Shown here: positions 17,136-45,870 of the stretch, in pieces
Layout of the letters: every line of letters begins with the position of its first letter
How positions within the stretch are numbered: the first letter of the stretch is position 1
Source: Nesterenkonia massiliensis
GTDB lineage: Bacteria; Actinomycetota; Actinomycetes; Actinomycetales; Micrococcaceae
Direction: 5' to 3'
Length of the DNA: 45,870 bases
Assembly (NCBI RefSeq): GCF_000455245.1
Contig: NZ_HG005166.1
Location: 320,195-366,064 of the forward strand
Notes under the pieces: generated by a model
The model's input: the letters and a program-made list of their open reading frames with translations, nothing else
Database searches by the model: none
Told to the model about the DNA's origin: nothing
Made by a program: the position numbers and the translations under genes

Positions 17136-18898
17136 CCCGCCGCCTGCGTTCAGGCCTGCTGGCCTGCCTTGCACTGCTGGGCCTTGTCCTCAGCGGCTGT
17201 GCGCCCACGCTGCCCACGGATGGTCCGGTCCAGGCAGTCGAGGCGGAGGAGGTGGTGGCCTTCAGCTATGTCTACAGGCCCAGTGAGCCGTCACCGGGTG
17301 CCTCCCCTGAGGAGATCATCAACGGCTTTATCCAGGCCGGCGCTGGTCCCCAAGACGACTATTCGGTAGCGCGGCAGTACCTCACTGCTGAAGCCCGCAG
17401 CGAATGGTCTCCGGGACAGCAGACCATGATTTACTCCACCCCGCCGAATTACCAGCCGGCCGGGGAGGGGGAGTACCAGATGGAGCTCAATGTGGATTCC
17501 CGGGTGGACTCCACCGGCATTATGTTCCGCACCGATGAGTTTGTCCGTGAGACTTTTGAGCTGGAACAGGTCGAGGGTGAATGGCGGATCAGCTCCCTTC
17601 CCGAGGGACTGGGCAAGATCCTGGACCAGACGATGTTCGAACGGGCTCATACCGCGGTGGAGCAGTACTTCTTCGATCCGCAGCTGCGTTATGCAGTGCC
17701 GGACCAGCGCTGGTTCGTCACCAGGCCCAGCCTGCTGGGCGACATTGCTACCAGCATCCTGGCCGGTCCGGCCCCCTGGCTTGATCAGGCTGTGGTGTCC
17801 GCGTTCCCGCGTGGTGCAGAACTGGGGCGTCCCACCGTCACAGAAGAGGAGCAGGTCGCTTATGTGGACCTGAACCCTGCGGCACTGGCGGGGGCCTCGC
17901 AGTCTGATCTGCTGCTGATGCAGCGTCAGATGGAGATGGCGTTGGAACAGGTCGGCGGAGTCGAGGAAGTCAGGCTGACCGTGAACCAGGAAGAGTTGGA
18001 GCTGCCCAACCCGGAGGAGCTGCCGGAGGATCAGCAGCTGAATCTTCAGGCGCATCCACAGGTCAGCAATATCCAGGTAGGTGTTCTGAATGATCAGTTG
18101 GCCCTGCAGCGCGGCACTGTGACTGAGCAGATCGCGCAGCTGCCGGATATTGCTGAACTCGAGCCGCAGTCCCCTGCCATGTCCGAACTGACCGGTGCCG
18201 ATGCCTTCGCGTTCCTCAACGGTGACGGTGATGCGCTCTACCATGTGCGCCCCGGACAGGATGAAGCGGAGCTGGTACTGGAGGGCGAGGACCTCACGCG
18301 CCCCTCTATGGACAATTTTGGCTGGACCTGGACGGTCTCACATGACGACGGCGAAACCATGGTCAACACCGTGCCCTTTGATGATCCTGCTGCCGGAGAA
18401 GCACGCCAGATCAGCGCTGACCTGCTGGAGGATCGGCGGGTGACATCGCTGCGGATCGCTCAGGATGGCACGCGTGCCGTTCTCGTGGTGGATGATGCCA
18501 CCGAGTCAACCATCTACATTGCCGCTGTCATCCGTGATGAGCAGGGAGTACCGCGAGCGCTGGGGCAGGCTGTGCCGCTGCCGTCCGAAAGTGCCGTGAC
18601 CGAGGTGCGCTGGAGCGGATCCACCGGCGATGAGCTGTTGGCATGGTCCCCTTACAGCCCCGGAGAGGCCCAGGAACAAGGCGTGGAGGAACTGACTCGG
18701 GATATCTATCGGATTCAGCTCAGCACCGGCGAGGTGCAGAGCCTCTATCCTGTGCTGGGCCTGCTGAATGTCTCTGCAGGTGAAGGTCAGCCCCATGTCA
18801 GTACTGAAAGCGAATCAACGGCCTACTCTTCGCTGGTGGGTTCGCAGTGGCAGCCTAACTACGATATCGAGATCCGCGACCTGGCCTACCCCGGGTAG
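17132..18898 (+). CDS. lpqB: lipoprotein LpqB
   Basis: 588 residues. Signal sequence with hydrophobic LACLALLGLVLSG and lipobox LSGC gives a membrane-tethered extracytoplasmic protein. A GerMN-type domain lies at about 180-290 (VVSAFPRGAELGRPTVTEEE, VAYVDLNPAALAGASQSDLL). The C-terminal half (about 300-580) is a beta-propeller-like LpqB domain (WTWTVSHDDGETMVNTVPF, SLRIAQDGTRAVLVVDD). LpqB interacts with the MtrB sensor region and tunes MtrAB signalling and cell-wall physiology in mycobacteria. The ATG overlaps the mtrB stop, so synthesis is coupled to the kinase. Length and domain order are standard. Confidence 0.95.
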   Translation: MTRRLRSGLLACLALLGLVLSGCAPTLPTDGPVQAVEAEEVVAFSYVYRPSEPSPGASPEEIINGFIQAGAGPQDDYSVARQYLTAEARSEWSPGQQTMIYSTPPNYQPAGEGEYQMELNVDSRVDSTGIMFRTDEFVRETFELEQVEGEWRISSLPEGLGKILDQTMFERAHTAVEQYFFDPQLRYAVPDQRWFVTRPSLLGDIATSILAGPAPWLDQAVVSAFPRGAELGRPTVTEEEQVAYVDLNPAALAGASQSDLLLMQRQMEMALEQVGGVEEVRLTVNQEELELPNPEELPEDQQLNLQAHPQVSNIQVGVLNDQLALQRGTVTEQIAQLPDIAELEPQSPAMSELTGADAFAFLNGDGDALYHVRPGQDEAELVLEGEDLTRPSMDNFGWTWTVSHDDGETMVNTVPFDDPAAGEARQISADLLEDRRVTSLRIAQDGTRAVLVVDDATESTIYIAAVIRDEQGVPRALGQAVPLPSESAVTEVRWSGSTGDELLAWSPYSPGEAQEQGVEELTRDIYRIQLSTGEVQSLYPVLGLLNVSAGEGQPHVSTESESTAYSSLVGSQWQPNYDIEIRDLAYPG

Positions 18899-34766: not shown

Positions 34767-36038
34767 TCAGTTTTTCTGGTTCTGGCCCATGATGGGCAAG
34801 CTGCCCGCTGAGCTGGGACGATGCAGCATCGACTCCGCTGTGGACAGAAAGTGCTCGAACTGCTCGGGCCTTCTGGCTCCAGGTGCCAAGGTAAGCAGGA
34901 CCGCGGCCGTCCGGGCTGCCAAGTCATCGGGATCATGGATGGCGGCCAGGTGATCCCAGAAGAGCTGGATATGTCTGTCTACCCCAGCGTAGCCCTGTGG
35001 ATCAAAGCTGGGAAGGGCGAGCATATGCGCGAAGAAAGTGGCGGCGTCGTCGGCGGCGTAACCCGGACCTACCGTATCGGTGTCAATGAGGGCACTCAGC
35101 GAGGTCGCCTGCTGGTCGACAAAGAGGTTCGCCGGGTGGAAATCGCCGTGGATGGGCACCAAAGGGCCAGGCTCGGGAAGCAGCCTCTGCCGGATGCCCA
35201 GCAGCAGATCATCGACCCGCTGTGTCGGTGCGCCCTGGGAGTGCAGCACTGGGCCGAAAGCCTGCACGCGGGAGGCCGCGGAGACCTTTGCGGGTAGCTG
35301 AAGTGCCTCAGCGCTGATGCTGTGCAGAGCCGAGAAGATCAATTCGGGGCCTATCTGAACTGCTGGATCAGGTGCGGTGGGTCGGTAGAGATGATGAGTC
35401 AGCGGTATGCCACGGGCGGCTTCACTGACGAGTATCCCGTCTCCGGCATCCCAGAGAGGTGGGGCTAACGCGCAGCTGTCGTGACGCTGCAGAAGGGTTC
35501 TGGACCGGCTGGGACGCACGGTTTTGATGTAGACATCCTCCACCGAGTCTGCCCCTCGCTGGAGGGTGAACCGGTGTACTGCTCGGCGCAGCGGGCGCAG
35601 CACCAGCAGCTCCCCGGAATGTACCTCCACTGTGGTTCCCCAGATTCTGCGCAGCAGTCTCGGAAGCGCCTGCTGGTCTTCCACCAGCACCAGACCTGGA
35701 AGTGCGGGGTCCTGCGGGAAGGCCCAGAGATGCAGTGCCCCAAGTGGTGAGTCCAGTCGAACCGCCTGCAGGGCCGCGCGCTGGTCATCGCTGAGCTTTA
35801 CCGTGGAAATGATGAGCATCAGCTTGGCCCCGCCGGAGTCGACCAGATATTTGGCGCTGGTCTCTGCACCGGGGCGGGTGTAAATCTGTTCTAGCCGCCA
35901 CTGGCCCACTCGAAGGCCAGCGGAACTCAGTGCCAGCTCCAGCAGCTCTCCGGCCTCCTCAGAGCGCAGCAGCTGCTCCAGTGCAGCCTGCGGTGCGGCC
36001 TGGTCTCCGTGACCGGAGTCTCCCATGGCAGAGATCAT
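34767..36038 (-). CDS. APH-fold phosphotransferase (aminoglycoside phosphotransferase/choline kinase superfamily)
   Basis: 423 residues from ATG 36038. A start at 36077 is also open but lies in a palindromic operator. The N-lobe (TSAKYLVDSGGAKLMLIIST and VEDVYIKTVRPSRSRTLLQ) holds the likely ATP lysine in VYIKTV. The catalytic loop is VPIHGDFHPANLFVD with Asp and Asn intact, and the metal Asp is in ALIDTDTVGPGYAADDAA. The substrate is unknown; such proteins phosphorylate small molecules or sugars, and nothing indicates drug resistance. TAAAAA seven nt before the ATG could be a -10 of a leaderless mRNA. It is divergent from the two-component operon, so the shared spacer may control both. Distantly related kinases lie at 42870-45364. 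Confidence 0.82.
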   Translation of the reverse strand: MISAMGDSGHGDQAAPQAALEQLLRSEEAGELLELALSSAGLRVGQWRLEQIYTRPGAETSAKYLVDSGGAKLMLIISTVKLSDDQRAALQAVRLDSPLGALHLWAFPQDPALPGLVLVEDQQALPRLLRRIWGTTVEVHSGELLVLRPLRRAVHRFTLQRGADSVEDVYIKTVRPSRSRTLLQRHDSCALAPPLWDAGDGILVSEAARGIPLTHHLYRPTAPDPAVQIGPELIFSALHSISAEALQLPAKVSAASRVQAFGPVLHSQGAPTQRVDDLLLGIRQRLLPEPGPLVPIHGDFHPANLFVDQQATSLSALIDTDTVGPGYAADDAATFFAHMLALPSFDPQGYAGVDRHIQLFWDHLAAIHDPDDLAARTAAVLLTLAPGARRPEQFEHFLSTAESMLHRPSSAGSLPIMGQNQKN

Positions 36039-36061
36039 GGTCCTATTTTTACCGCCTGCGA

Positions 36062-36077
36062 ATGAGAAAACTCTCAT
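36062..36077 (+). promoter_or_regulatory. palindromic operator, copy 1 (two-component operon)
   Basis: ATGAGAAAACTCTCAT has perfect 6-bp arms ATGAGA and TCTCAT around AAAC. It ends 46 nt before the kinase GTG at 36124. Extra half-sites TTTTCATT (36081-36088) and ATGAGAAAC (36108-36116) follow. The identical 16-mer occurs at 42347-42362 in the same orientation relative to its downstream gene, so chance is unlikely. Confidence 0.7.
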
Positions 36078-36123
36078 GGTTTTTCATTTCCGAAGCCTCG
36101 CAAGAGAATGAGAAACTAAGCGG

Positions 36124-37680
36124 GTGGTCCCGGAAGTCAGACAGAATCTCCCAGAACAGCAGGCCACGGGTCGGCGTCGACTCAGCCAGAGCTGGAGCAT
36201 GCGCCAGATCAGCGTGCGCTCCCGCATTCTGATGGCGGTACTGGGGTTGGCTGCACTCGGTCTGGTGGTGGCCGGATATACAGCTTTTGCTATCCAGCAG
36301 ATCCAGGTGGAATCCCGGATAAACGCCGAACTGCAGGCTGACTCCGAGCAGTTCCGATTACTCCACGACGTCGGCGTTGACCCGCGCACTGGTGAGAGCT
36401 TCTCCTCCCCGGCAGACCTCGTGCATATCGCCATGCAGCGCATTATCCCCACCCGCAACGAGGGTGCGGTGGGATTTGTCGACGGCGAGGTCGCCTTCAC
36501 CTCCGCAGTGGCCCCGGTGGCACTGGAGGAGGACGCTGAGCTCGTCGAGGCTCTGCGTCCCTATGCACTCTCTGACCGGGCCAGCTTCACCACCATCAGC
36601 ACCTCGCGCACCACCTACCGGGCCGCCGTCGTCCCCGTTCACGCCCAGACCACTGCCGAAGACATCGATGGACAGGACCATGAAGTAGCCACCTTCGTCC
36701 TGGCCTATGACCTCACCGCCGAACGAGGAGTCTTCGCAGACGGCTTCATCATCTATGCCATTGTCGCCGCCTTCTCTCTAGTGGTGGTGGCCGTGGTGGG
36801 ATGGATTGTGGCAGGCCGCGTCCTGCACCCAGTGCGCGTACTCGCAGGTGCTGCTCGGCGGATTGGGCGCGAGGATATCAGCGAGCGCATCCCAGTGGCA
36901 GGCGGCGATGATCTGGCGGAAATGACCAGAGCAGTCAACGAGATGCTCGAGCGCCTTGAAGGGGCCTTCCGTGCTCAGGACCAGCTGGTGGCCGATGTCA
37001 GCCACGAGCTGCGGACTCCGCTGACCATCCTTCGTGGCCACCTGGAGGTGCTTGATGTAGGAGATCCCGCCGATATCATCGCCACCCGGGAACTGGCCAT
37101 CGATGAGCTGAAACGGATGAACCGGGTCGTAGATGACCTCACCACGCTGGCTCAGGCCGAGCATCCTGAATTCGTTCAGCCCCAGCCCACTGATATCGGC
37201 ACCCTCACAGATGAAGTCTTCGACAAGGCAATCGCCTTGGGGCCCCGGCGGTGGACCATCGCTGAACGCACCGAAGCGGTGGCGATGCTGGACCGCGAAC
37301 GCATCACCCAGGCGTGGCTGCAGCTTGCCGCCAACGCCGTGAAGTTCTCTCCCGAAGGCTCCGTTATCTCCTTGGCCTCGCAAGTGCAGGGCGATGACCT
37401 CCTGCTAAGCCTGCGAGACCAGGGCGAAGGGATCGCCGAGGAGGACCAGCAGCGAATCTTCGAGCGGTTCGGCAGAACCGATAAGTCCAAGCCTGGGTCC
37501 GGGTTGGGGCTGCCCATCGTCGCAGCGATAGTCCGCGCACACGGCGGGCACGTAGTGGTCGAGTCACAACCCGGAGCCGGCGCGACCTTCACCATGGTGA
37601 TACCGGCTGGCATTGTGGAAGTCTCCGGATCCCAGGAAGGCCCGAGCGAACCAGACACAGAAGGGGAGGCTCCCGCATGA
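36124..37680 (+). CDS. membrane sensor histidine kinase
   Basis: 518 residues from GTG 36124, or 493 from ATG 36199, which lacks good ribosome-site spacing. Helix 1 is at about 36-58 (MAVLGLAALGLVVAGYTAF). A 145-residue extracytoplasmic sensor domain has no family I recognise. Helix 2 is at 207-230 (FIIYAIVAAFSLVVVAVVGW). HAMP spans about 231-283, and His294 lies in VADVSHELRTPLTILRGHLE. The ATPase boxes are LAANAVKFSPEG, LRDQGEGI and SGLGLPIVAAIV. The acidic tail (EGPSEPDTEGEAPA) is disordered. It is translationally coupled to the response regulator by ATGA. The palindromic operator upstream suggests autoregulation. Signal sensed is unknown; the envelope is likely. Confidence 0.92.
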   Translation: MVPEVRQNLPEQQATGRRRLSQSWSMRQISVRSRILMAVLGLAALGLVVAGYTAFAIQQIQVESRINAELQADSEQFRLLHDVGVDPRTGESFSSPADLVHIAMQRIIPTRNEGAVGFVDGEVAFTSAVAPVALEEDAELVEALRPYALSDRASFTTISTSRTTYRAAVVPVHAQTTAEDIDGQDHEVATFVLAYDLTAERGVFADGFIIYAIVAAFSLVVVAVVGWIVAGRVLHPVRVLAGAARRIGREDISERIPVAGGDDLAEMTRAVNEMLERLEGAFRAQDQLVADVSHELRTPLTILRGHLEVLDVGDPADIIATRELAIDELKRMNRVVDDLTTLAQAEHPEFVQPQPTDIGTLTDEVFDKAIALGPRRWTIAERTEAVAMLDRERITQAWLQLAANAVKFSPEGSVISLASQVQGDDLLLSLRDQGEGIAEEDQQRIFERFGRTDKSKPGSGLGLPIVAAIVRAHGGHVVVESQPGAGATFTMVIPAGIVEVSGSQEGPSEPDTEGEAPA

Positions 37681-38336
37681 CCTCAGTGCTGATCGTAGAA
37701 GATGAGGACCGCATCGCGTCCTTCGTGGAGAAGGGGCTCAGCTCTGCCGGCTACGCCACTGTGCGTGCCAAAACTGCAGGTGAAGGGTTCGAGTTCGCGC
37801 TCAACACCAACGTTGACCTCGCTGTTCTTGACCTCGGTCTGCCCGATGAGGACGGCCTGAGCCTGCTGGCGCGGCTGCGCAGCCGTGGTTGGGGCGCCCC
37901 GGTGATTATCCTGACAGCCCGCGGGGCGGCGGCAGACACCGTGCGCGGACTGGAGGCCGGAGCCGATGACTATATGGCTAAACCCTTCAGTATTGATGAG
38001 CTGCTGGCCAGAATCCGGCTGCGCCTGCGCTCAGGGTCAGCTGAGGAGCCGACCACGTTGACTGCAGGTGCTTTGACCCTTGACCTGCACGGTCGCACCG
38101 TACGCGTCGACGGTGTGGAACACGAACTGTCCTCCAGAGAATTCGCCCTGGCGGAGACCTTCATGCGCCACCCGGGGCAGGTGCTCAGCCGTGAGCAGCT
38201 GCTGGAGATGGTCTGGGGCTACAGCTTTGATCCGGGTTCCAACTTGGTGGATGTCTATGTGCGGTATCTGCGCGCCAAAATCGGTGCCGAAGCCATCCGC
38301 ACCGTCCGTGGTGTGGGGTACCGGCTAGACGTCTGA
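37677..38336 (+). CDS. OmpR/PhoB-family response regulator
   Basis: 219 residues. The receiver (1-115) shows the acidic pocket IVEDEDR, phosphoacceptor Asp52 (VLDLGLPDEDG), ILTARGAAADTV and the conserved lysine in YMAKPFSIDELLAR. The winged-helix effector (about 128-218) shows HELSSREFALAETFMRHPGQ, LEMVWGYSFDPGSNLVDVYV and IRTVRGVGYRLDV. It overlaps the kinase gene by four bases. The identical palindromes upstream of its own operon and of the small secreted-protein gene are the best candidates for its binding sites, although OmpR-family sites are more often direct repeats. The wall-anchored protein follows 230 bp later. Confidence 0.94.
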   Translation: MTSVLIVEDEDRIASFVEKGLSSAGYATVRAKTAGEGFEFALNTNVDLAVLDLGLPDEDGLSLLARLRSRGWGAPVIILTARGAAADTVRGLEAGADDYMAKPFSIDELLARIRLRLRSGSAEEPTTLTAGALTLDLHGRTVRVDGVEHELSSREFALAETFMRHPGQVLSREQLLEMVWGYSFDPGSNLVDVYVRYLRAKIGAEAIRTVRGVGYRLDV

Positions 38337-38424
38337 GCACCACGCCATCGGCCGCAGAAGTTCCCGAAGCCCTCCCCTTCGGCGCATGGCGCTGCTGCCT
38401 ACTGCTCGCACACCCCAGTGCTCC

Positions 38425-38456
38425 CTGGGAGTTCGCCCAATAGTTACTGGGAGTTC
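38425..38456 (+). promoter_or_regulatory. direct repeat upstream of the wall-anchored protein gene
   Basis: CTGGGAGTTC occurs at 38425-38434 and 38447-38456, 22 bp apart start to start, which is two helical turns. The first copy overlaps the palindrome CTCCCTGGGAG (38421-38431). It lies about 110 bp before the start codon, where an OmpR-type activator could bind. Inference from spacing only. Confidence 0.35.
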
Positions 38457-38566
38457 ACTTTGCTCTGATTCGCTGACAGGCGTTTGCACCCGGTCGCAGA
38501 GCCCTTTGCTGGTCTGCGCGGGGCCTGAGCCCAATCGCTGTCTGTTGATGAGGAATGTCTGCTTTT

Positions 38567-41500
38567 ATGAGCACTCAAGCTGACGCTGTGCACCCACAGC
38601 GCGCACGTATCGTCAAAGGTCTGGTCAGTCTGGGAGCGGTCGGTGCGCTCTTGGGCGCCCCGTTAGCCCCCGCCACTGCCACAACTGAACCTGTAGCGGA
38701 CCCGGAGGTTCCCGGTAGTCAGTCGGTGGTCGGCATCGAGCAGCTGGCTGTTTCCGTGGTCGGGGACGGAACGCGCACCGGCAATGAGGCAGTTCCAGTC
38801 AGCATCCACCTGTTCAACCCTGATGGGACGCTCAACGGCGTCACCGGCATTCCCTACGCAGGGGATGAGGACGGTCAGCACCGCTTCGTGCTCGGCGCTG
38901 ACCGGGATCAGGCCGGTGCCCTGCAATTATCGGCGGACGGCTCCACCCTGGTGATCGGCGGCTATGACGCCGAGCTAGGCGCAGCCACCAACGGTGCGCT
39001 CAGCGAACTGGGCACCCAGCGGGTGGTGGCGGCCATTTCCGCAGACGGCAGCGTGGATGTCTCCACCTCCCTGGCAGGTGCCTTCAGCGGCGGTCATATC
39101 CGCGGCGTCGCTGCCCTGGACAGCACCCGGTACTGGGTCGGCGGGCATGGCAATAACGATGCCCAGGCGCCCTATGATGCCGGCGTACTCACGGTTGAAG
39201 CCGGCGGAGATGACCCCGCCGTCGTCGTGCCTGGCAACTCCGGGCAGTTGCGTAACCACCGCGTGCCCGGCATTTACGATGGCCAGCTCTACGTCAGCTC
39301 CGACCGCTCCAATTACAGCGGCATTGTTCAGATCGGCAACGGAGTGCCCACCGAGACCATTGCCGAGGAGGAGTTCGAGGTGATCGCTGCCACCCCCGAG
39401 GGGCGTGATGTGCCGCATGACTTCGTCTTCGCCGGGGAGTACCTCTACGTGGCCTTCACCGAGGGTGATGAGCCCGCGCTGGTGCGCTACGCCGAGGTCA
39501 GCGGTTCCTGGGAGCCTGACTCCGCCTACCCGGGTGAATTCTGGGGTGTGGAGGCTGCTGAGACTGAGGACGGTGTGGCTGTTTATGCAACCCGCGGCTC
39601 CGGGTTCGGCAACGAACTGGTGCAGATCCTGGACACCAACGGCCTGGATGAGGCTTCCTCCCAGGTGATCGCTACCGCAGAGGAGAACTACGCGTTCCGC
39701 GGCGTCGCCTTCGCCCCCGGCTTTGCGCCCGGTGGAGCCGTCGAGCTTGAAGACCTCGAGCTGCTGCCGGCCGATCTCGACTGGCAGGTCCAGGTGCCCT
39801 ACGGGGAGGGTGATGCGCTTTCGGCAGTGCTCGGGGCCGACACCAACCCGCGGGCCCGATTCGAGCTGACCAGTGAGGAGATCACCGATCTCGGTTCAGC
39901 TGAGTTCCAGGTCAGCAGTGCCGATGAGGATGTGGTGACCGCGGACGCCGTCGTCATCAAGAACCACGACGACGGCACCTACAGCTTAAGCGCAGAGCCG
40001 CAGTCAGCAGGTATCACCGAGCTGCGGATCACCGCGACGCTGGAGGGCGAGAAGATCGCCGAATCCACGCTGCGCTACTGGGTCTCCGAGTCCCTGCCGG
40101 AGGAGAGCGCCCTGGCACATGTGGGTATGGCTGATGCCTCCACCGCCCAGGATGTCGGCGACGGGCATCTGCTGGTGGCTGACGACGACAGCCTCGGCAT
40201 CCGTCTCTACGGACCCACCTTTGACGTGCCGGTGAACTTCTTCCCCATCCAGGGCGAGGACCACGAACACATCCCCTATGAGCGGGCGCCCGGCGAGACG
40301 TGGGACATGGAGGCCTCTGCTCGGATGGACGACACGATCTTCTGGATCGGTTCCATCGGCAATTCGCGCTCCGGCAACGTGCGGCCCGACCGGGATACCA
40401 TCGCCGCCACTGAGCTGACCGGATCCGGTGCCGAGACTGAGCTAGAGACCCTGGGGTATGCTCGCGGCTTCAAGGACGCGCTGGTGGCCTGGGATAACGC
40501 CGATGGCCACGGCCTGGGCGCGGGCGCTTTCGGCTTCGAGCGGGCTGTGCAGCCCGGCTACTCGGTGGAGGGCCCGAACAGCCTCAACGTTGAAGGTGCG
40601 GCCATGGCACCTGACGGTCAGTCCCTGTGGCTGGCCTTCCGTTCCCCGCTGGTGGATCCTGAGGCCGGGGTCGGCAGCAATGATGTGCCCGAGAGCGCCG
40701 GCGATCACGCGCTGATCGTCGAGATCGCCGACATCTACGATGTCACCGTCAACGGCGCTGAGATTCACATCACCGATTACCACCTGCTGGACCTGGGCGG
40801 CCGGGCCATTCGCGGCATGGCCAATACCGGGGACGGACACTACGCCATCCAGGCGGGCTCCGCCGACGACGCGGGCAACTTCGCCATCTTCGGCTGGACC
40901 GGGGACCCCGACGATGCTCCGGTGGAGTCGGTCAACCAGATGGGCATGGCGTGGGACAAGGACGGCTCCTACGAGTCGCTGCCGCTGGTTCCTTCACTGC
41001 AGGATGGCACCAGCATCCGGGTGGTGCAGGACGTGGGAACCGTGGATCTCTACGACAACGGGATCGAGGCCCAGAGCTTGACTCCGGAGTTCATGAAGTT
41101 CTTCAGCCACGACTACGTGCTGGACTTCCAGGGCGCCTTTGCTGAAGAGGGCGCAGATCCCGATCCCGCCCCGCAGCCTGAGCCGGAGCTCACCCTTGGC
41201 GCAGAGCGGATCGAAGCCGGCGAGGAGATCACTGTGAAGGGCGCTGGCTTCAGCGCAGGAGAGCAGCTGCTGCTGCAGCTCAACCCGGAGCTGGGCACTG
41301 TGGAGGCTGATGAGTCCGGTGAGTTCAGTGTCACCGTGAGGATTCCCGAGGACATCCCGGCTGGCGACTACATGTTGCGGGCGCTGAACTCCGACGGCGA
41401 TGTGTTGGCCGAAGCTCCGTTGACAGTGACTGAATCTGCACAGGACGAGCCCACCGGGGTGCCGACGGATGAGGCGACGGTCGATCCGACCACGGATCCC

Positions 41501-41692
41501 ACGGCTGATCCTTCGCAGACCGCCACAGAGTCCCCCACTGCCTCGCCCACTGAGCCCGGTGAGGCGGGTACTGACGGGCTGGCCCGCACCGGCGCTGCGA
41601 TCGGCGCGGTCTTCGGCGGCGCATTGCTGCTGGTGCTGCTGGGGCTTGTGATGCACCTACGAGCACGTCGCAGCGGCCAGTTCACGGACTAG
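38567..41692 (+). CDS. LAxTG cell-wall-anchored double beta-propeller surface protein
   Basis: 1041 residues from ATG 38567. GAGGA lies 12 nt upstream; an ATG at 38555 abuts GAGGA and is less likely. The signal peptide is basic (HPQRARIVKG) then hydrophobic (LVSLGAVGALLGAPLAPATA). Residues about 45-390 form a beta-propeller-like domain (LQLSADGSTLVIGGYDAELG, RGVAALDSTRYWVGGHGNND). An Ig-like linker follows, then a second propeller at about 515-870 (DGHLLVADDDSLGIRLYG, LNVEGAAMAPDGQSLWLAFR). An Ig/IPT-like domain comes next (LTLGAERIEAGEEITVKGAG), then a Thr/Pro/Asp-rich wall-spanning stretch. The terminal sorting signal is LARTG, hydrophobic helix and RARRSG, as used by class E sortases. Ligand or enzymatic role unknown. 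Confidence 0.88.
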   Translation: MSTQADAVHPQRARIVKGLVSLGAVGALLGAPLAPATATTEPVADPEVPGSQSVVGIEQLAVSVVGDGTRTGNEAVPVSIHLFNPDGTLNGVTGIPYAGDEDGQHRFVLGADRDQAGALQLSADGSTLVIGGYDAELGAATNGALSELGTQRVVAAISADGSVDVSTSLAGAFSGGHIRGVAALDSTRYWVGGHGNNDAQAPYDAGVLTVEAGGDDPAVVVPGNSGQLRNHRVPGIYDGQLYVSSDRSNYSGIVQIGNGVPTETIAEEEFEVIAATPEGRDVPHDFVFAGEYLYVAFTEGDEPALVRYAEVSGSWEPDSAYPGEFWGVEAAETEDGVAVYATRGSGFGNELVQILDTNGLDEASSQVIATAEENYAFRGVAFAPGFAPGGAVELEDLELLPADLDWQVQVPYGEGDALSAVLGADTNPRARFELTSEEITDLGSAEFQVSSADEDVVTADAVVIKNHDDGTYSLSAEPQSAGITELRITATLEGEKIAESTLRYWVSESLPEESALAHVGMADASTAQDVGDGHLLVADDDSLGIRLYGPTFDVPVNFFPIQGEDHEHIPYERAPGETWDMEASARMDDTIFWIGSIGNSRSGNVRPDRDTIAATELTGSGAETELETLGYARGFKDALVAWDNADGHGLGAGAFGFERAVQPGYSVEGPNSLNVEGAAMAPDGQSLWLAFRSPLVDPEAGVGSNDVPESAGDHALIVEIADIYDVTVNGAEIHITDYHLLDLGGRAIRGMANTGDGHYAIQAGSADDAGNFAIFGWTGDPDDAPVESVNQMGMAWDKDGSYESLPLVPSLQDGTSIRVVQDVGTVDLYDNGIEAQSLTPEFMKFFSHDYVLDFQGAFAEEGADPDPAPQPEPELTLGAERIEAGEEITVKGAGFSAGEQLLLQLNPELGTVEADESGEFSVTVRIPEDIPAGDYMLRALNSDGDVLAEAPLTVTESAQDEPTGVPTDEATVDPTTDPTADPSQTATESPTASPTEPGEAGTDGLARTGAAIGAVFGGALLLVLLGLVMHLRARRSGQFTD

Positions 41693-41710
41693 AACGCGTC
41701 CTGCCAGATC

Positions 41711-41744
41711 ACGAGGCCCCGGTCAAGAACAACCGGGGCCTCGT
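41711..41744. terminator. strong bidirectional terminator hairpin
   Basis: Perfect 13-bp arms ACGAGGCCCCGGT (41711-41723) and ACCGGGGCCTCGT (41732-41744) enclose an 8-nt loop. It lies between the wall-protein gene and the convergent small secreted-protein gene. Confidence 0.85.
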
Positions 41745-41794
41745 TGGCGTCCGGGCTGGGTCTACAGTGCAGTCCCGGGCCGCGTTGCCGAAGT

Positions 41795-42253
41795 TCAGGA
41801 ACTGGGGGCCGACGGGGCAGACCAGCTCTGCGCGCTCGGGGCTGACCAGGAGGACACCGGAGCGGCTGTGCGGGTCTGCGGCGGAGCAGGTACCACTGTC
41901 TGAGTCTGCCGTGGTGCTTGGGTGCTCGGCTGCGGGGCGGGGGCTTCCTCGGCGCGCTGCGGAACCGGAGTCTCAACAGCGCTGCGTGAGGGGGCGGGTG
42001 AGGAAGCCGACTCTGCCGAGGGCGGCGTCGCCGGTGAGGCGGTGCTGGTGGCAGTGGGGCTCGGGCTCGGGGATTGGCTCGGGCTCGGGGACTCGCTGGG
42101 ACTCTCACTCGGGGAGGTGTTACTGGCAACGGACATAGCCGGTCCCAGATCCACCTCGGTGGGATTGCTCATCGCATGGGCCAGCGCAGTGCCGCCGCCG
42201 AGGGCCACAATGCCCAGCGCTCCGGTGAGGACCCACGTGCTCTGCTTGCTCAT
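41795..42253 (-). CDS. small secreted Ser/Pro-rich protein
   Basis: 152 residues. The N-terminus STWVLTGALGIVALGGGTAL is a signal sequence or anchor helix with possible cleavage near ALAHA. A short conserved-looking segment (MSNPTEVDLGPAMSVASN) follows. The remainder is low-complexity Ser/Pro/Glu/Thr (SPSESPSPSQSPSPSPTATS) ending in Trp-Ser-Ala-Pro repeats, with no cysteine. It is probably an extended wall-associated or secreted peptide. The identical palindromic operator found before the two-component operon lies 93 nt upstream of its ATG, with a second ATGAGAG half-site 22 bp away, so it is a likely regulon member. No known domain; function unknown. Confidence 0.75.
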   Translation of the reverse strand: MSKQSTWVLTGALGIVALGGGTALAHAMSNPTEVDLGPAMSVASNTSPSESPSESPSPSQSPSPSPTATSTASPATPPSAESASSPAPSRSAVETPVPQRAEEAPAPQPSTQAPRQTQTVVPAPPQTRTAAPVSSWSAPSAQSWSAPSAPSS

Positions 42254-42346
42254 CTCGGAAGCGTTCCTCTCAGCCCCTAGGGCTGTAGATCTTCTTATGA
42301 CACTACCGATCCTCGCCGCCCACTATGAGAGCACCAGGAGAGTGAG

Positions 42347-42362
42347 ATGAGAGTTTTCTCAT
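42347..42362 (-). promoter_or_regulatory. palindromic operator, copy 2 (small secreted protein)
   Basis: Read on the minus strand this is ATGAGAAAACTCTCAT, identical in all 16 bases to the site at 36062-36077 and in the same orientation relative to the downstream gene. A half-site ATGAGAG on the plus strand (42325-42331) lies exactly 22 bp from ATGAGAG at 42347. It could also affect the plus-strand membrane protein gene 53 bp away. Confidence 0.7.
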
Positions 42363-42415
42363 CTGCCGTCAGGTTCTGCCGTAGACCCGGGACAGGCGGG
42401 TGATTCAATAGGGGC

Positions 42416-42823
42416 ATGTCCGAAACACCTGCCGCGGCGCGCCCCCTAGCTATCTGGATCGTCTACCTCATCCTTTTCTTACAAGGCGCGGCGGTGATCC
42501 TGTTCACCATAGGGTCGGTCCTCACCTCCGAGGCAGCGGTGCTGGACACAGCCGGGCAGATCGCCCTGGTGGTGCTGTACCTGTTAGCCGGTGTGGTGCT
42601 GATGATCCTGGGATTCCGGATTTTCCTGGGCGCAGCTGGTGCCCGCACTCCGACGATGGTGCTGCAACTGCTGCTGGTGATCCTCTCCTTCAGCTTCTTC
42701 GCAGGCGGGACCCCGTTGGTAGGGGTGATCTTCCTGGTGCCCGCCGCCGCGGTGCTGGTGCTGCTGTTCACCCCGGCTTCGCAGAGCTGGCTGGAGATCA
42801 AGTCCGGACCCCGGTTCAGTTGA
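42416..42823 (+). CDS. small four-helix membrane protein
   Basis: 135 residues. Four hydrophobic helices are clear: LAIWIVYLILFLQGAAVILF, IALVVLYLLAGVVLMILGF, MVLQLLLVILSFSFFAG and LVGVIFLVPAAAVLVLLF. It has short loops and a polar C-terminus (SQSWLEIKSGPRFS). No domain family is recognised; it resembles many small actinobacterial integral membrane proteins. It is divergent from the secreted Ser/Pro-rich gene across a 162-bp spacer containing the palindromic operator, so it may belong to the same regulon. It ends at a 13-bp tandem repeat. Confidence 0.78.
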   Translation: MSETPAAARPLAIWIVYLILFLQGAAVILFTIGSVLTSEAAVLDTAGQIALVVLYLLAGVVLMILGFRIFLGAAGARTPTMVLQLLLVILSFSFFAGGTPLVGVIFLVPAAAVLVLLFTPASQSWLEIKSGPRFS

Positions 42824-42869: not shown

Positions 42870-44018
42870 TCAGCCAGTAGTACTGACGGCGGCACGCAGC
42901 CCGGCGGCCAGCTCCGCGTACTGCGGACGCACCGCATACACACAGCCCAGGCGCAGCAGTGCGGCCTGCTCATAGGTTCGCAGGGTCTCTTCGGGGACTG
43001 CCGTCGCCTCGGCGGTCTGATCGATATGACTGATGACGACGTCGGCCTGTTGTGCAGTCCACACGCCCTGGCACCTGCGAAGCCGCGCGTGAGCGCGCAG
43101 ATTGCCAAGGTCCAGCGCCGGATCCGCCAGGCATGCAGTGTCCACATCCAGCAGACCCGGCCCTTGGGGTGACCACAGCAGCTGTTTATCGTGCAGATCC
43201 CGATGGCAGACCCTCAGCTGCGCTGCAGGAAGAGCCTGCAGGTGTGCGCCGAGTCGCCGCGCAGCCCGAGCCGCGGAGTCAGCGTCGTCAATATAACGTG
43301 AGACCTGGCTGATCCAGGACATGAGCAGTGCGGCCTCATCGGCAGCACTGTGGACCGGGATGCTCTGCCGGGTTTGCGCTATCCCGGCACTCTCGGAGCG
43401 AGTGACTGCCTCATGCCAGGCCTGGAGAACATCGCGCCAAGCGGTGTCCCATAGTGTCTCGGGAAGCGCGGCAGCGTCATGGAGCCCTACGCCGTTGACA
43501 CTGGAGAGAATCACTTCTGAGTCACTGTGGTGGAGCACCTCCGGGGTGACGAAGGGTCCGGAGAAAGGTCCAGCACGCTGGATGCCGTCCAGGATGCCGC
43601 TGGCTTTGCCGCCTTTGACCACTTTAACGTAGCTGTTCTCCTCAGCGAGGTGGACCACCGCGCGCTTGGCCGGACGATGTGAGACCACCCTGCCGCGCTG
43701 GGCCCACTTCCAGAGCGTCTTCAGCTGCGGGTCCTGTCCATAGGTCAGCAGCTGGAGCCGTTGTTCGTCCCACCAGCCAGCCCGCACTTCACCGCCGGCC
43801 TGTGCTTCACCCCCGGCGAGGGCCTCTACCGCCAGCAGAGCATCAGCGTTTTTGGCGGGCCAGGCGCGCTGGATCTGCCATTCGGTGTTGTCGATGGTGA
43901 GCCAGCGCGGGGGAAGCGCATGGGGAGACCCGCGCTGCTGCGTCAGCTGTTCGGCGGGAATGGCACGAGTCTGCGCAGCAGAATCGGCGGTGGCATTGGC
44001 CGTACTGGGGGTGCTCAT
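42870..44018 (-). CDS. APH-fold kinase, second of an ABC-linked pair
   Basis: 382 residues. The N-terminal 110 residues are Ala/Trp-rich and unlike classical kinases. The N-lobe has NSYVKVVKGGKASGILDGI with the likely ATP lysine. The catalytic loop is CHRDLHDKQLLWSPQG, so Gln stands where HGDxxxxN has Asn. The metal Asp lies in GLLDVDTACLADPALDLGNL. The Gln-type loop is known in maltokinase-like proteins of this superfamily. It is translationally coupled (ATGA) to the preceding kinase gene, which is itself coupled to an ABC exporter. The substrate is unknown. Two paralogs in one operon suggest a heterodimer or successive steps on one exported compound. Confidence 0.8.
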   Translation of the reverse strand: MSTPSTANATADSAAQTRAIPAEQLTQQRGSPHALPPRWLTIDNTEWQIQRAWPAKNADALLAVEALAGGEAQAGGEVRAGWWDEQRLQLLTYGQDPQLKTLWKWAQRGRVVSHRPAKRAVVHLAEENSYVKVVKGGKASGILDGIQRAGPFSGPFVTPEVLHHSDSEVILSSVNGVGLHDAAALPETLWDTAWRDVLQAWHEAVTRSESAGIAQTRQSIPVHSAADEAALLMSWISQVSRYIDDADSAARAARRLGAHLQALPAAQLRVCHRDLHDKQLLWSPQGPGLLDVDTACLADPALDLGNLRAHARLRRCQGVWTAQQADVVISHIDQTAEATAVPEETLRTYEQAALLRLGCVYAVRPQYAELAAGLRAAVSTTG

Positions 44019-45364
44019 CGCAGGATTGCCTCCTCGGCGCAGGTGATGGCTGCGGTGATCAGCTGCGGCCAGTTCTGCTCCCTGTGGCGGAAGGGATCAA
44101 GCGCCCCGGTCAGATGTGAGTAGGCCTCCCACGCGCTTAACAGGTCAAGGTCCAGCTCATCGGCACTGATGCCCAGCTGGGTGGCATAGCCGTGCAAGAA
44201 AGGTTCCACGAGCTGCGGCAGGCCCTGACGGAAGCACGTGGCTGCCCAGGAGCCCAGGTCTCGCAGGGGGTGACCTATTCCGCTGCGTTCTAAATCGATG
44301 AGCCGGATTTTATGGCTGTTCGGGGCAGCCAGAATGACCTGGTCAGCTGAAAGGTCTCCATGCAGTTCACAGGGAGCGAGCAGCTCAGCGTGTTCGCGCC
44401 GGCCCAGCGCCGCCTCACGGAGTCTGCGTTCAATGACCTCTGCCAATTTCTCAGCACGTTCACCCAGCCACGGGGCGAAGCGCTGGATCGGCGCCACAGC
44501 CTGGGTGGCAGACACTGGCAGGACCTGCAGTCGGCTGCCCGCGGCCGCGTCGTCGTTGTCAGTGTTCAACCTGGTGGTTGAGTGCAGGAGTGCCACAGCC
44601 GACCCTGCGCTGTGAGCCGCGGGCTCGAAGGGGTGATGGGTGAGGTCCCCGACACCCCACATGGGGGTGATCACCGCGGTGTCACGCTCGCCCAGAGCCT
44701 TCGCATTGGTGACAGGCACTCCCAGTTCGCGCCAGCGCGCGGTGGTCTCCAGGAGCTTGGCAGCACCGGATTCCACCACGCGCACCACATGGCTGGGGCG
44801 GCCCCGGGGGCCTACTGCGGCGACTACCCGACGGCGTGGGTTATAGCGCAGCATCTCCCAGTGGGCGCCATCCTCACCGAATCGCTGACTGGTGGCGGCA
44901 AAGGCTGAATGAAGCGCAGTGGCCAGGACCGGATCTGCCCAGACCGGACCACTGAACAGCCACGGCGACTCATCCTGGTGGACGTGCAGAGTCTCACCGA
45001 CCCTCGCCGCCCGTTGAATAGCTTTGGTGAATTTATCCGCATCAGTGGTCAGCGCCGCATAACCGTAGGCACCGCAACGGTCCACAAAGGTCACCACCAC
45101 AGAATGGTCGGGTTTGATGCGCAGATGCGTGATGCGGACCTGACGGGTCAGCAGCTCGGAGAGCTTCGCTGGATTCAGCAGCAGCTCAGCTCCAGGAAGC
45201 TGGGCAGAGCGTGCAGCCCAGACATCAGCCTGATCAGCACTGGGCTGCTCAGCACTGGGCTGCTCAGCGCTGGACTGCTCGAGGCTTGGCTGTTTGAGAG
45301 TCGGCTGCTGGTCGCGCGCCTGCTCGAGCTGGTGGACGCGGGGTAGTTCGCCGGTGACACTCAT
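44015..45364 (-). CDS. APH-fold kinase, first of an ABC-linked pair, with pentapeptide repeats
   Basis: 449 residues. Residues about 11-45 are seven degenerate pentapeptides of the xQPSx type (EQPSA EQPSA DQADV), encoded by 15-bp DNA repeats. The N-lobe follows (ITHLRIKPDHSVVVTFVDRC, GRPSHVVRVVESGAAKLLE). The catalytic loop is CELHGDLSADQVILAAPN, with Gln at the usual Asn position, and the metal Asp is in RLIDLERSGIGHPLRDLGSW. Both ATG and stop overlap neighbours by four bases, coupling ABC exporter, this kinase and the next. Target unknown. Similarity to aminoglycoside kinases is at superfamily level only. Confidence 0.82.
   Translation of the reverse strand: MSVTGELPRVHQLEQARDQQPTLKQPSLEQSSAEQPSAEQPSADQADVWAARSAQLPGAELLLNPAKLSELLTRQVRITHLRIKPDHSVVVTFVDRCGAYGYAALTTDADKFTKAIQRAARVGETLHVHQDESPWLFSGPVWADPVLATALHSAFAATSQRFGEDGAHWEMLRYNPRRRVVAAVGPRGRPSHVVRVVESGAAKLLETTARWRELGVPVTNAKALGERDTAVITPMWGVGDLTHHPFEPAAHSAGSAVALLHSTTRLNTDNDDAAAGSRLQVLPVSATQAVAPIQRFAPWLGERAEKLAEVIERRLREAALGRREHAELLAPCELHGDLSADQVILAAPNSHKIRLIDLERSGIGHPLRDLGSWAATCFRQGLPQLVEPFLHGYATQLGISADELDLDLLSAWEAYSHLTGALDPFRHREQNWPQLITAAITCAEEAILR
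45230..45304. repeat. 15-bp coding tandem repeats
   Basis: Five consecutive 15-bp units (starting at 45230, 45245, 45260, 45275 and 45290) derive from CTGCTCAGCACTGGG, with the second and third nearly identical and the outer ones decayed. Period 15 preserves the kinase reading frame. Confidence 0.75.
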
Positions 45365-45870
45365 CGGGCATACTCCTTCGCAGGGTGGATGGGCACAGCC
45401 GAAGCAGCTTTCACCTGCTGCTGGGCCTGGAAGCGGGTGTTCTCCTTCGCCATCGCTTCTTGCTGGAATGCAGCCCAGCGCGAGAGTTTGCTGTCTGGAT
45501 CGGCCAGCAGGCTTTGGGGCGCGCCGTCTTCCACAATGCGCCCACCCTCAAGCCACAGCACTCGGTCCAGGCCCTGCACGGTGGAGAGCTCATGGGTAAT
45601 GGCAATGGTGGTTCGCCCATGGGTCAGCTCCCGCAAGGACTCTTCCACCAAGTGTCGCGACGCCGGGTCCAGGCCGGAGGTAGGTTCATCCAGCAGCACG
45701 ATCGGTGCATCACGGACCAGCGCCCGGGCGATGGCGATGCGCTGACGCTGGCCGCCGGAGAGCGTGTCACCGCGGTGACCCAGCACCGTCTCGTAGCCTT
45801 CGGGAAGGGACAAAATGAACTCGTGAATACCGGCACGGCGGGCTGCTTCGATGATTTCCGGATCGGTAGC
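45361..45870 (-). CDS. ABC exporter ATP-binding domain, partial (N-terminus beyond window)
   Basis: 169 residues remain. They include the Q-loop-to-signature helix region (IIEAARRAGIHEFILSLPEG), signature LSGGQRQRIAIARALVRDAP, Walker B IVLLDEPTSGLDPAS and the switch His in TIAITHELSTVQG. The arrangement is typical of fused permease-ATPase exporters (type IV ABC), with a Gln/Ala-rich C-terminal tail (QEAMAKENTRFQAQQQVKAA). The permease part would lie upstream beyond 45870. The stop overlaps the kinase ATG (ATGA), so transport and phosphorylation genes are translated together. Substrate unknown. Confidence 0.9.
   Translation of the reverse strand, partial: ATDPEIIEAARRAGIHEFILSLPEGYETVLGHRGDTLSGGQRQRIAIARALVRDAPIVLLDEPTSGLDPASRHLVEESLRELTHGRTTIAITHELSTVQGLDRVLWLEGGRIVEDGAPQSLLADPDSKLSRWAAFQQEAMAKENTRFQAQQQVKAASAVPIHPAKEYAR

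Follow-up and report, generated by a model that had tools for sequence, protein, structure and literature searches.

The window analysed here is a stretch of 45,870 nucleotides (nt) from Nesterenkonia massiliensis (contig NZ_HG005166.1, positions 320,195 to 366,064), in which an identical 16-base-pair (bp) palindrome, ATGAGAAAACTCTCAT, occurs both between a two-component gene pair and a divergent APH-fold kinase gene and 5' of a gene for a small secreted protein. On the comparative evidence given below, the palindrome is very probably the operator of the response regulator encoded at 37677-38336, in what would be an autoregulated two-component system of the OmpR/PhoB type over surface-glycan genes, APH-fold kinases and a disordered secreted protein. 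The features that this reading concerns, in window coordinates, are as follows.

34767-36038, minus strand: APHa, divergent APH-fold kinase, its start 24 nt from operator 1
36062-36077, no strand assigned: operator 1, ATGAGA-N4-TCTCAT between the divergent APHa and the kinase-regulator genes; exact, and kept at orthologous loci
36108-36113, plus strand: extra half-site ATGAGA just 5' of the histidine kinase start codon; the aATGAGAAACTgA block is mostly kept across 13 aligned sites on the kinase side
36124-37680, plus strand: sensor histidine kinase (HAMP, HisKA, HATPase_c) with a predicted PAS/CACHE-like extracytoplasmic domain
37677-38336, plus strand: OmpR/PhoB-family response regulator
41795-42253, minus strand: small secreted Ser/Pro/Ala-rich protein, 152 residues
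42309-42314, minus strand: predicted -10 element GAGGAT of a putative promoter, 11 nt beyond the last repeat
42326-42362, minus strand: operator 2, exact ATGAGA-N4-TCTCAT and, past it, TCTCC and TCTCA repeats (ladder with an 11-bp period), 5' of the small secreted protein

The regulator combines a receiver with a Trans_reg_C domain and adjoins a HAMP-HisKA-HATPase kinase, as is characteristic of OmpR/PhoB two-component systems. The two genes overlap by 4 bases, and the kinase start codon lies 47 nt past operator 1, a distance found again in one orthologous locus (L023). Beyond residue 24 the small secreted protein is made up of 24% Ser, 21% Pro and 17% Ala, and a search of it against Pfam and NCBIfam returned nothing at E 0.001.

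The palindrome in the window and the genome

In the palindrome a spacer of 4 bp separates the arms ATGAGA and TCTCAT, each of 6 bp. An earlier note on this DNA, made from the letters alone, had placed identical copies at 36062-36077 (plus strand) and 42347-42362 (minus strand), and both are exact; a scan of the window at up to three mismatches gave just these two (0.17 expected), and two matches at that tolerance were reached in 2 of 100 shuffles. The genome-wide check for numerous copies outside promoters, which the note had proposed, revealed no third copy, exact or with up to two mismatches, in the 2,672,431 bases (19 contigs) searched. The extra half-sites that it had described beside both copies were likewise recovered, as the second ATGAGA at 36108-36113 and as a ladder with an 11-bp period at 42326-42352 (minus strand), where two more TCTCA-like half-sites lie past the palindrome. 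As to its statement that each site is oriented toward its downstream gene, the strands are exactly as given; operator 1 additionally faces the divergent APHa gene (ATG at 36038). Two one-mismatch sites of the genome (C3:321435 and C10:22482) lie within or at long reading frames and were set aside.

Distribution within Nesterenkonia

Thirty Nesterenkonia genomes were compared, of which 16 encode the regulator with an identity of at least 77%, four carry only homologues of about 50-56% identity and ten gave no match at the cut-off. Twenty-five exact ATGAGA-N4-TCTCAT sites were found in 15 of the 16 regulator-positive genomes and none in the 14 others (Fisher p 2e-7, kinship ignored), and the sixteenth regulator-positive genome, which is 65% complete, has a site with one mismatch. 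A reversed control pattern occurred once in all 30 genomes. In the four genomes with the more distant homologues, the recognition segment of the regulator is altered and the motif is absent.

The positions of the sites are also retained. Of 12 orthologous loci (L022-L033), 11 have the secreted-protein site; it is exact in ten and has one mismatch in L033, where no secreted-protein match was found. In the twelfth genome it lies on another contig (L040). The site between the kinase and APHa was seen in ten of the 12 loci (four exact, six with one mismatch), lies on another contig in an eleventh genome (L049), and is missing from L033. In aligned orthologous sites the arms are constant and the spacer is variable; as the spacers of relatives differ between sites while the arms hold, the AAAC common to both copies in the window appears incidental. 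Altogether 22 of the 25 exact sites in the genus are part of the module (one, in G038, by coordinates alone) and three lie elsewhere; the two of these that were inspected (G007, G023) adjoin a gene for a PepSY lipoprotein, and the third is in G038:C49. The PepSY lipoprotein was rejected as a regulon member in the window's own genome, where the best candidate in its 3.15-kb locus has at least four mismatches. A separate observation concerns L029:7483-8239, where the small secreted-protein gene is duplicated in tandem with one operator per copy.

A third operator 5' of a glycosyltransferase run

When the genome of the window was searched for the ladder, two places without mismatch were obtained, operator 2 and G000:C2:371541-371567 (minus strand), and the control gave three. 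The latter place is a third operator, 5.5 kb to the right of the window and 5' of a gene that we call GTa; the locus is thus not closed by the two palindromes, which the earlier note had taken to bracket it. This operator has the form ATGAGA-N15-TCTCAT, in which the inverted arm is 11 bp, or one helical turn, farther away than in the N4 form. Downstream of GTa, on the same strand and with short gaps or overlaps, lie two GT1-type glycosyltransferases, an ATP-binding cassette (ABC) transporter of MsbA-like layout and two APH-fold kinases, the last two of which are inside the window:

44015-45364, minus strand: APHc, APH-fold kinase, in the same-strand run GTa-GTb-GTc-ABC-APHc-APHb
42870-44018, minus strand: APHb, APH-fold kinase, final gene of this run

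The run looks like one operon that encodes three glycosyltransferases, two of them clear and one putative, together with the transporter and two APH-fold kinases. GTa is called a putative glycosyltransferase since its homologue in L105 scores 21.6 bits, just below the Glyco_tran_28_C cut-off of 22. The same gene order is seen at 11 of the 12 orthologous loci within the reach of each stretch, the contig of L022 ending before it. As a side observation, the ABC transporter gene (window 45361-45870, minus strand; L193:1819-3570, minus strand) looks frame-split, with its LSGGQ-bearing end in another frame, which may be an assembly error or a true break.

The N15 arrangement was first seen in three GTa promoters and was then used as a prediction for the 30 genomes. 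One copy was found in each of 14 genomes, all of them among the 16 regulator-positive ones, with none in the 14 negatives and none for the control, and every copy lies directly 5' of a GTa orthologue (57-100% identical). At all 14 sites the second repeat on the GTa side is good and a -10 hexamer stands exactly 11 nt past the third repeat position. In L027, the region 5' of GTa (about 17790-17880) holds three inverted ATGAGA half-sites with an 11-bp period opposite the TCTCA ladder, so that it is near-symmetric, and other GTa promoters look similar. GTa homologues in other families carry the N4 motif (L076, L077, L105).

Distribution across the order

Among 396 genomes of the order, 122 carry the exact motif, and these belong to 40 of 109 genera; copy numbers range from 0 to 7 per genome, and the reversed control was hit in one of the 396. 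For comparison with the regulator, one genome per genus was taken for 80 genera, namely every motif-bearing genus except that of the window (39 of 40) and 41 of the 69 motif-less ones (G391 dropped). At E<=1e-58 the regulator was detected in 35 of the 39 motif-bearing and 9 of the 41 motif-less genera (p 4e-10). Records that combine the motif with the two-component system are titled Nesterenkonia, Rhodococcus, Nocardioides, Pseudonocardia and Brevibacterium, among others.

The association is seen again at the level of the predicted DNA-recognition segment. Of the 80 named loci, 45 encode a regulator with the segment WGxxFDPGSN-VDVYV; an exact site accompanies 26 of these and only one of the 35 other regulators (p 6e-8), and at up to one mismatch the counts are 31 of 45 and 2 of 35.

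Architecture of the operator

The 45 segment-bearing loci were also used to examine the architecture of the site. They hold 32 exact palindromes, compared with a mean of 0.05 for 59 palindromes with permuted arms, and the spacer is 4 at all 32, with no occurrence at spacers of 0-3 or 5-14. Good TCTCA repeats peak at +21 (19) and +32 (18) of 64 strand views and never exceed three elsewhere between offsets 11 and 44. When distinct exact sites were pooled, 36 of 49 showed a good ladder, that is, direct repeats with a period of about 11 bp as expected for regulators of the OmpR/PhoB family. In 33 of these 36 ladder-bearing sites an nAnnnT hexamer lies 11 nt past the last repeat position, while no shift of -6 to +6 gives more than 4 of 36; as the 36 were preselected for a good ladder, its presence in them is circular, while the -10 result is independent of that choice. 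No sigma-70-like consensus promoter was found at the sites when the region 35900-42600 was scanned. Such a layout of repeats and -10 element is the geometry expected of PhoB-type activators, which take the place of the -35 box. The -10 element at a fixed distance past the third repeat corresponds to this geometry and would be consistent with activation by the regulator.

Genes beside the motif

Across the order the motif sites mostly adjoin a few gene classes. A homologue of APHa occurs within about 3 kb in 20 of 30 order-level motif loci, and such homologues adjoin the motif in other families too. The suggestion in the earlier note that the divergent APH-fold kinase may respond fits. The small exported proteins next to the motif, as judged by eye, either are Ser/Pro-rich or have an Asp/Trp-rich tail, the latter type preceding the kinase-regulator pair at a number of loci from Rhodococcus, Nocardioides and Pseudonocardia (again by eye). 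DUF4956 membrane proteins stand beside the motif in three loci, in one of which a VTC-domain gene follows, and a PIG-L protein does so in Actinotignum. No obvious gene of a known class was seen in L071, L078, L079, L085, L093 and L100. One genome, G209, holds seven exact copies, several of them away from any obvious known-class gene. In L080 a PepSY-like lipoprotein was recognised by eye only, and the Nesterenkonia PepSY protein gives no match to it.

Some further genes of the window deserve mention:

42416-42823, plus strand: small membrane protein divergent from operator 2, of doubtful membership
38555-41692, plus strand: secreted protein of 1045 residues between the regulator and the small secreted-protein gene, with an LPxTG-like tail (LARTG and membrane anchor, by eye)

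The membrane protein had been proposed as another responder, a weak suggestion given that 7 of 12 congeneric loci have its gene on the other side, near APHa and WhiB. The large secreted protein looks like an insertion, as it has no match in the 12 orthologous loci; it was rejected as a target on the same ground and because no TCTCA or TGAGA was seen by eye in 38337-38554. The APHa transcript may be leaderless, a -10-like AAAAAT standing a few bases 5' of the ATG (36038-36062, minus strand) and relatives being similar by eye.

Alternative explanations and strength of the evidence

A repeat, the trace of a mobile element or a chance 16-mer without regulatory meaning could account for two identical 16-mers within 6 kb. 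This can hardly be upheld against copy numbers of 0 to 7 per genome, chiefly at few gene classes, against arms that stay fixed while the spacer is free, and against a motif so much more frequent among the genomes of the order than its reversed control. Another transcription factor, either a different OmpR-family regulator or the product of an adjacent WhiB gene, might instead bind the sites and have the kinase-regulator pair merely as a target. On first look the genome encodes 23 other response-regulator-like candidates, and a WhiB gene is retained close to the pair. However, motif presence follows the regulator at 37677-38336 and its recognition segment, the four congeners with altered-segment homologues being without the motif. 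WhiB proteins are, as far as is known, near-universal in actinobacteria, and WhiB would therefore leave the absence of the motif unexplained. We consider this explanation improbable.

A repressor role for the same regulator is less improbable. The palindrome would then cover a presumed -35 element and the second half-site the start of the kinase gene, and transcription would be silenced until the signal arrives; the overlap of operator 1 with the presumed APHa -35, the mostly conserved half-site just 5' of the kinase start and the two-sided half-site arrays at some glycosyltransferase promoters would all suit such an arrangement. It is made rather unlikely by the lack of a consensus -35 for a free-running promoter and by the constant 11-nt spacing between repeat and -10, an activator layout, in 33 of 36 pooled and 14 of 14 GTa sites.

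The preferred reading, in which the palindrome is the operator of the regulator, has several observations weighing against it. The pattern of presence and absence in the genus may reflect one or few events on the tree. In the comparison of genera, mixed genera were represented by a motif-bearing member, and the cut-offs (E 1e-58 and the recognition segment) were chosen after inspection of the data; even so, the regulator is present in nine of the 41 motif-less genera and below the cut-off in four of the 39 motif-bearing ones. No site at up to one mismatch was found in 14 of the 45 segment-bearing loci, including all six titled Cellulomonas and both Streptomyces, and on rescanning 13 of the 14 a weak remnant was seen in two (L121, L122) and nothing in 11. 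A degenerate pattern at up to two mismatches matches 57 places in the genome per strand view against 19 for its control, a minority of these places having been inspected. A good ladder is confined to 36 of the 49 distinct exact sites, and the promoter on the kinase side is the least regular of all, so that the regulator might either raise or lower the expression of its own genes. Two of the 16 regulator-positive genomes have no N15 variant; the third repeat on the GTa side is good at just 7 of the 14 N15 sites, and at 8 of the 14 the better ladder faces away from GTa, for which reason GTa promoters are better described as two-sided arrays. GTa itself was assigned to no family by Pfam or NCBIfam, Pfam giving nothing even at E 1. 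The facts on orientation and on family lower our confidence slightly.

Proposed circuit

The earlier note had read the palindrome as the operator of this regulator, in an autoregulated circuit with a secreted output, and this gains support from the co-occurrence of motif and regulator, the positions in 12 loci, the recognition-segment class and the outcome of the third-operator prediction. In the circuit that we propose, the sensor kinase would read an envelope signal through its PAS/CACHE-like extracytoplasmic domain and phosphorylate the regulator. The regulator would then dock on TCTCA half-sites, up to three of them head-to-tail with an 11-bp period and capped by an inverted half-site, which is 4 bp away at the kinase-regulator/APHa and secreted-protein promoters and 15 bp away, one helical turn farther, at the promoter of the glycosyltransferase run. 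At this last promoter and at that of the secreted protein, the regulator would activate in the manner of PhoB, replacing the -35 box, and its action on its own genes may be positive autoregulation. The regulon would here comprise the kinase-regulator pair itself, APHa, the small Ser/Pro-rich secreted protein and the run of glycosyltransferase, ABC transporter, APHc and APHb genes. Judging from these genes, the system most likely tunes a surface glycan or glycoconjugate to the state of the envelope, and the secreted protein may be a surface product or a feedback ligand of the sensor.

It is tempting, if only as a tentative conjecture that we would not yet favour, to extend this to a class-wide actinobacterial envelope regulon. 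A hybrid operator of inverted half-site and ladder would then govern glycan synthesis and export, APH-fold kinases and a disordered exported protein of two interchangeable chemistries (Ser/Pro- or Asp/Trp-rich), which would act as feedback ligand of the sensor or as a polymer partner.

An apparently uncharacterised two-component system thereby gains a readable operator code and hence a testable regulon. Orphan APH-fold kinases become tied to surface-glycan genes and not to drug resistance, and attention is drawn to very small, disordered secreted proteins as a class. The hybrid operator also offers a good case for studying DNA recognition in the OmpR family, its inverted half-site being moved by one helical turn between promoters.

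Comparison with known systems

Any likeness of the sensor to WalK/YycG would be in fold class only (7% identity), and identity with WalK was rejected at 168 bits against the NCBIfam equivalog cut-off of 725. A heavy-metal regulator of the CopR/CusR type was likewise rejected (TIGR01386, 185.9 against 292.55 bits; TIGR01387, 190.1 against 279.2). In Streptomyces coelicolor, MacRS reportedly has the palindromic site TGAGTACnnGTACTCA and an OmpR-family regulator of membrane-protein genes. Its half-sites are reportedly 12 bp apart and those here 10, and it is not known to have an 11-bp ladder; since the aligned sites depart from that palindrome in the distance between half-sites and in the inner bases, MacRS was not accepted as the identity of the present system. 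A review passage gives just a consensus for morphogenesis genes.

CutRS of Streptomyces is described as a two-component system of OmpR-family type that acts on genes for exported proteins, with the CutR binding site TAWATAAA and CutS homologues that have two conserved sensor cysteines (PMC12802291). CutRS was rejected as the identity of the present system, in which the conserved element is ATGAGA-N4-TCTCAT (no scan for TAWATAAA was made) and the sensor cysteines are absent: this kinase has no cysteine, and among 41 aligned sensor domains just 2 have one or more. In the PepSY-associated system DbfQRS of Vibrio cholerae, a small exported protein is encoded beside the two-component system and co-regulated with it, and positive autoregulation is suggested (PMC12714742). 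The small protein here differs in being of low complexity, Ser/Pro-rich or Asp/Trp-rich. No PepSY protein was found beside the two-component genes among nine proteins scanned, the only one found in the genome being on another contig without a good site.

In operator design there is a likeness to the OmpR-type systems MtrAB and PhoRS of Corynebacterium and to PhoB-type activation in general. For Corynebacterium MtrA and PhoR, the cited study reports 8-bp repeats with a 3-bp linker, that is, an 11-bp period (PMC3353115). The present system shares with these an OmpR-family regulator and tandem repeats of 11-bp period, and differs from them in the TCTCA repeat, in having an inverted half-site as well, 4 or 15 bp away, and in its regulon. 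No description of the motif or the module was found in the literature searched, the coverage of which leaves out most subscription journals. A two-component system of OmpR/PhoB type is in itself of a known kind; what appears to be new is the code of the operator, together with the module and how widely it occurs.

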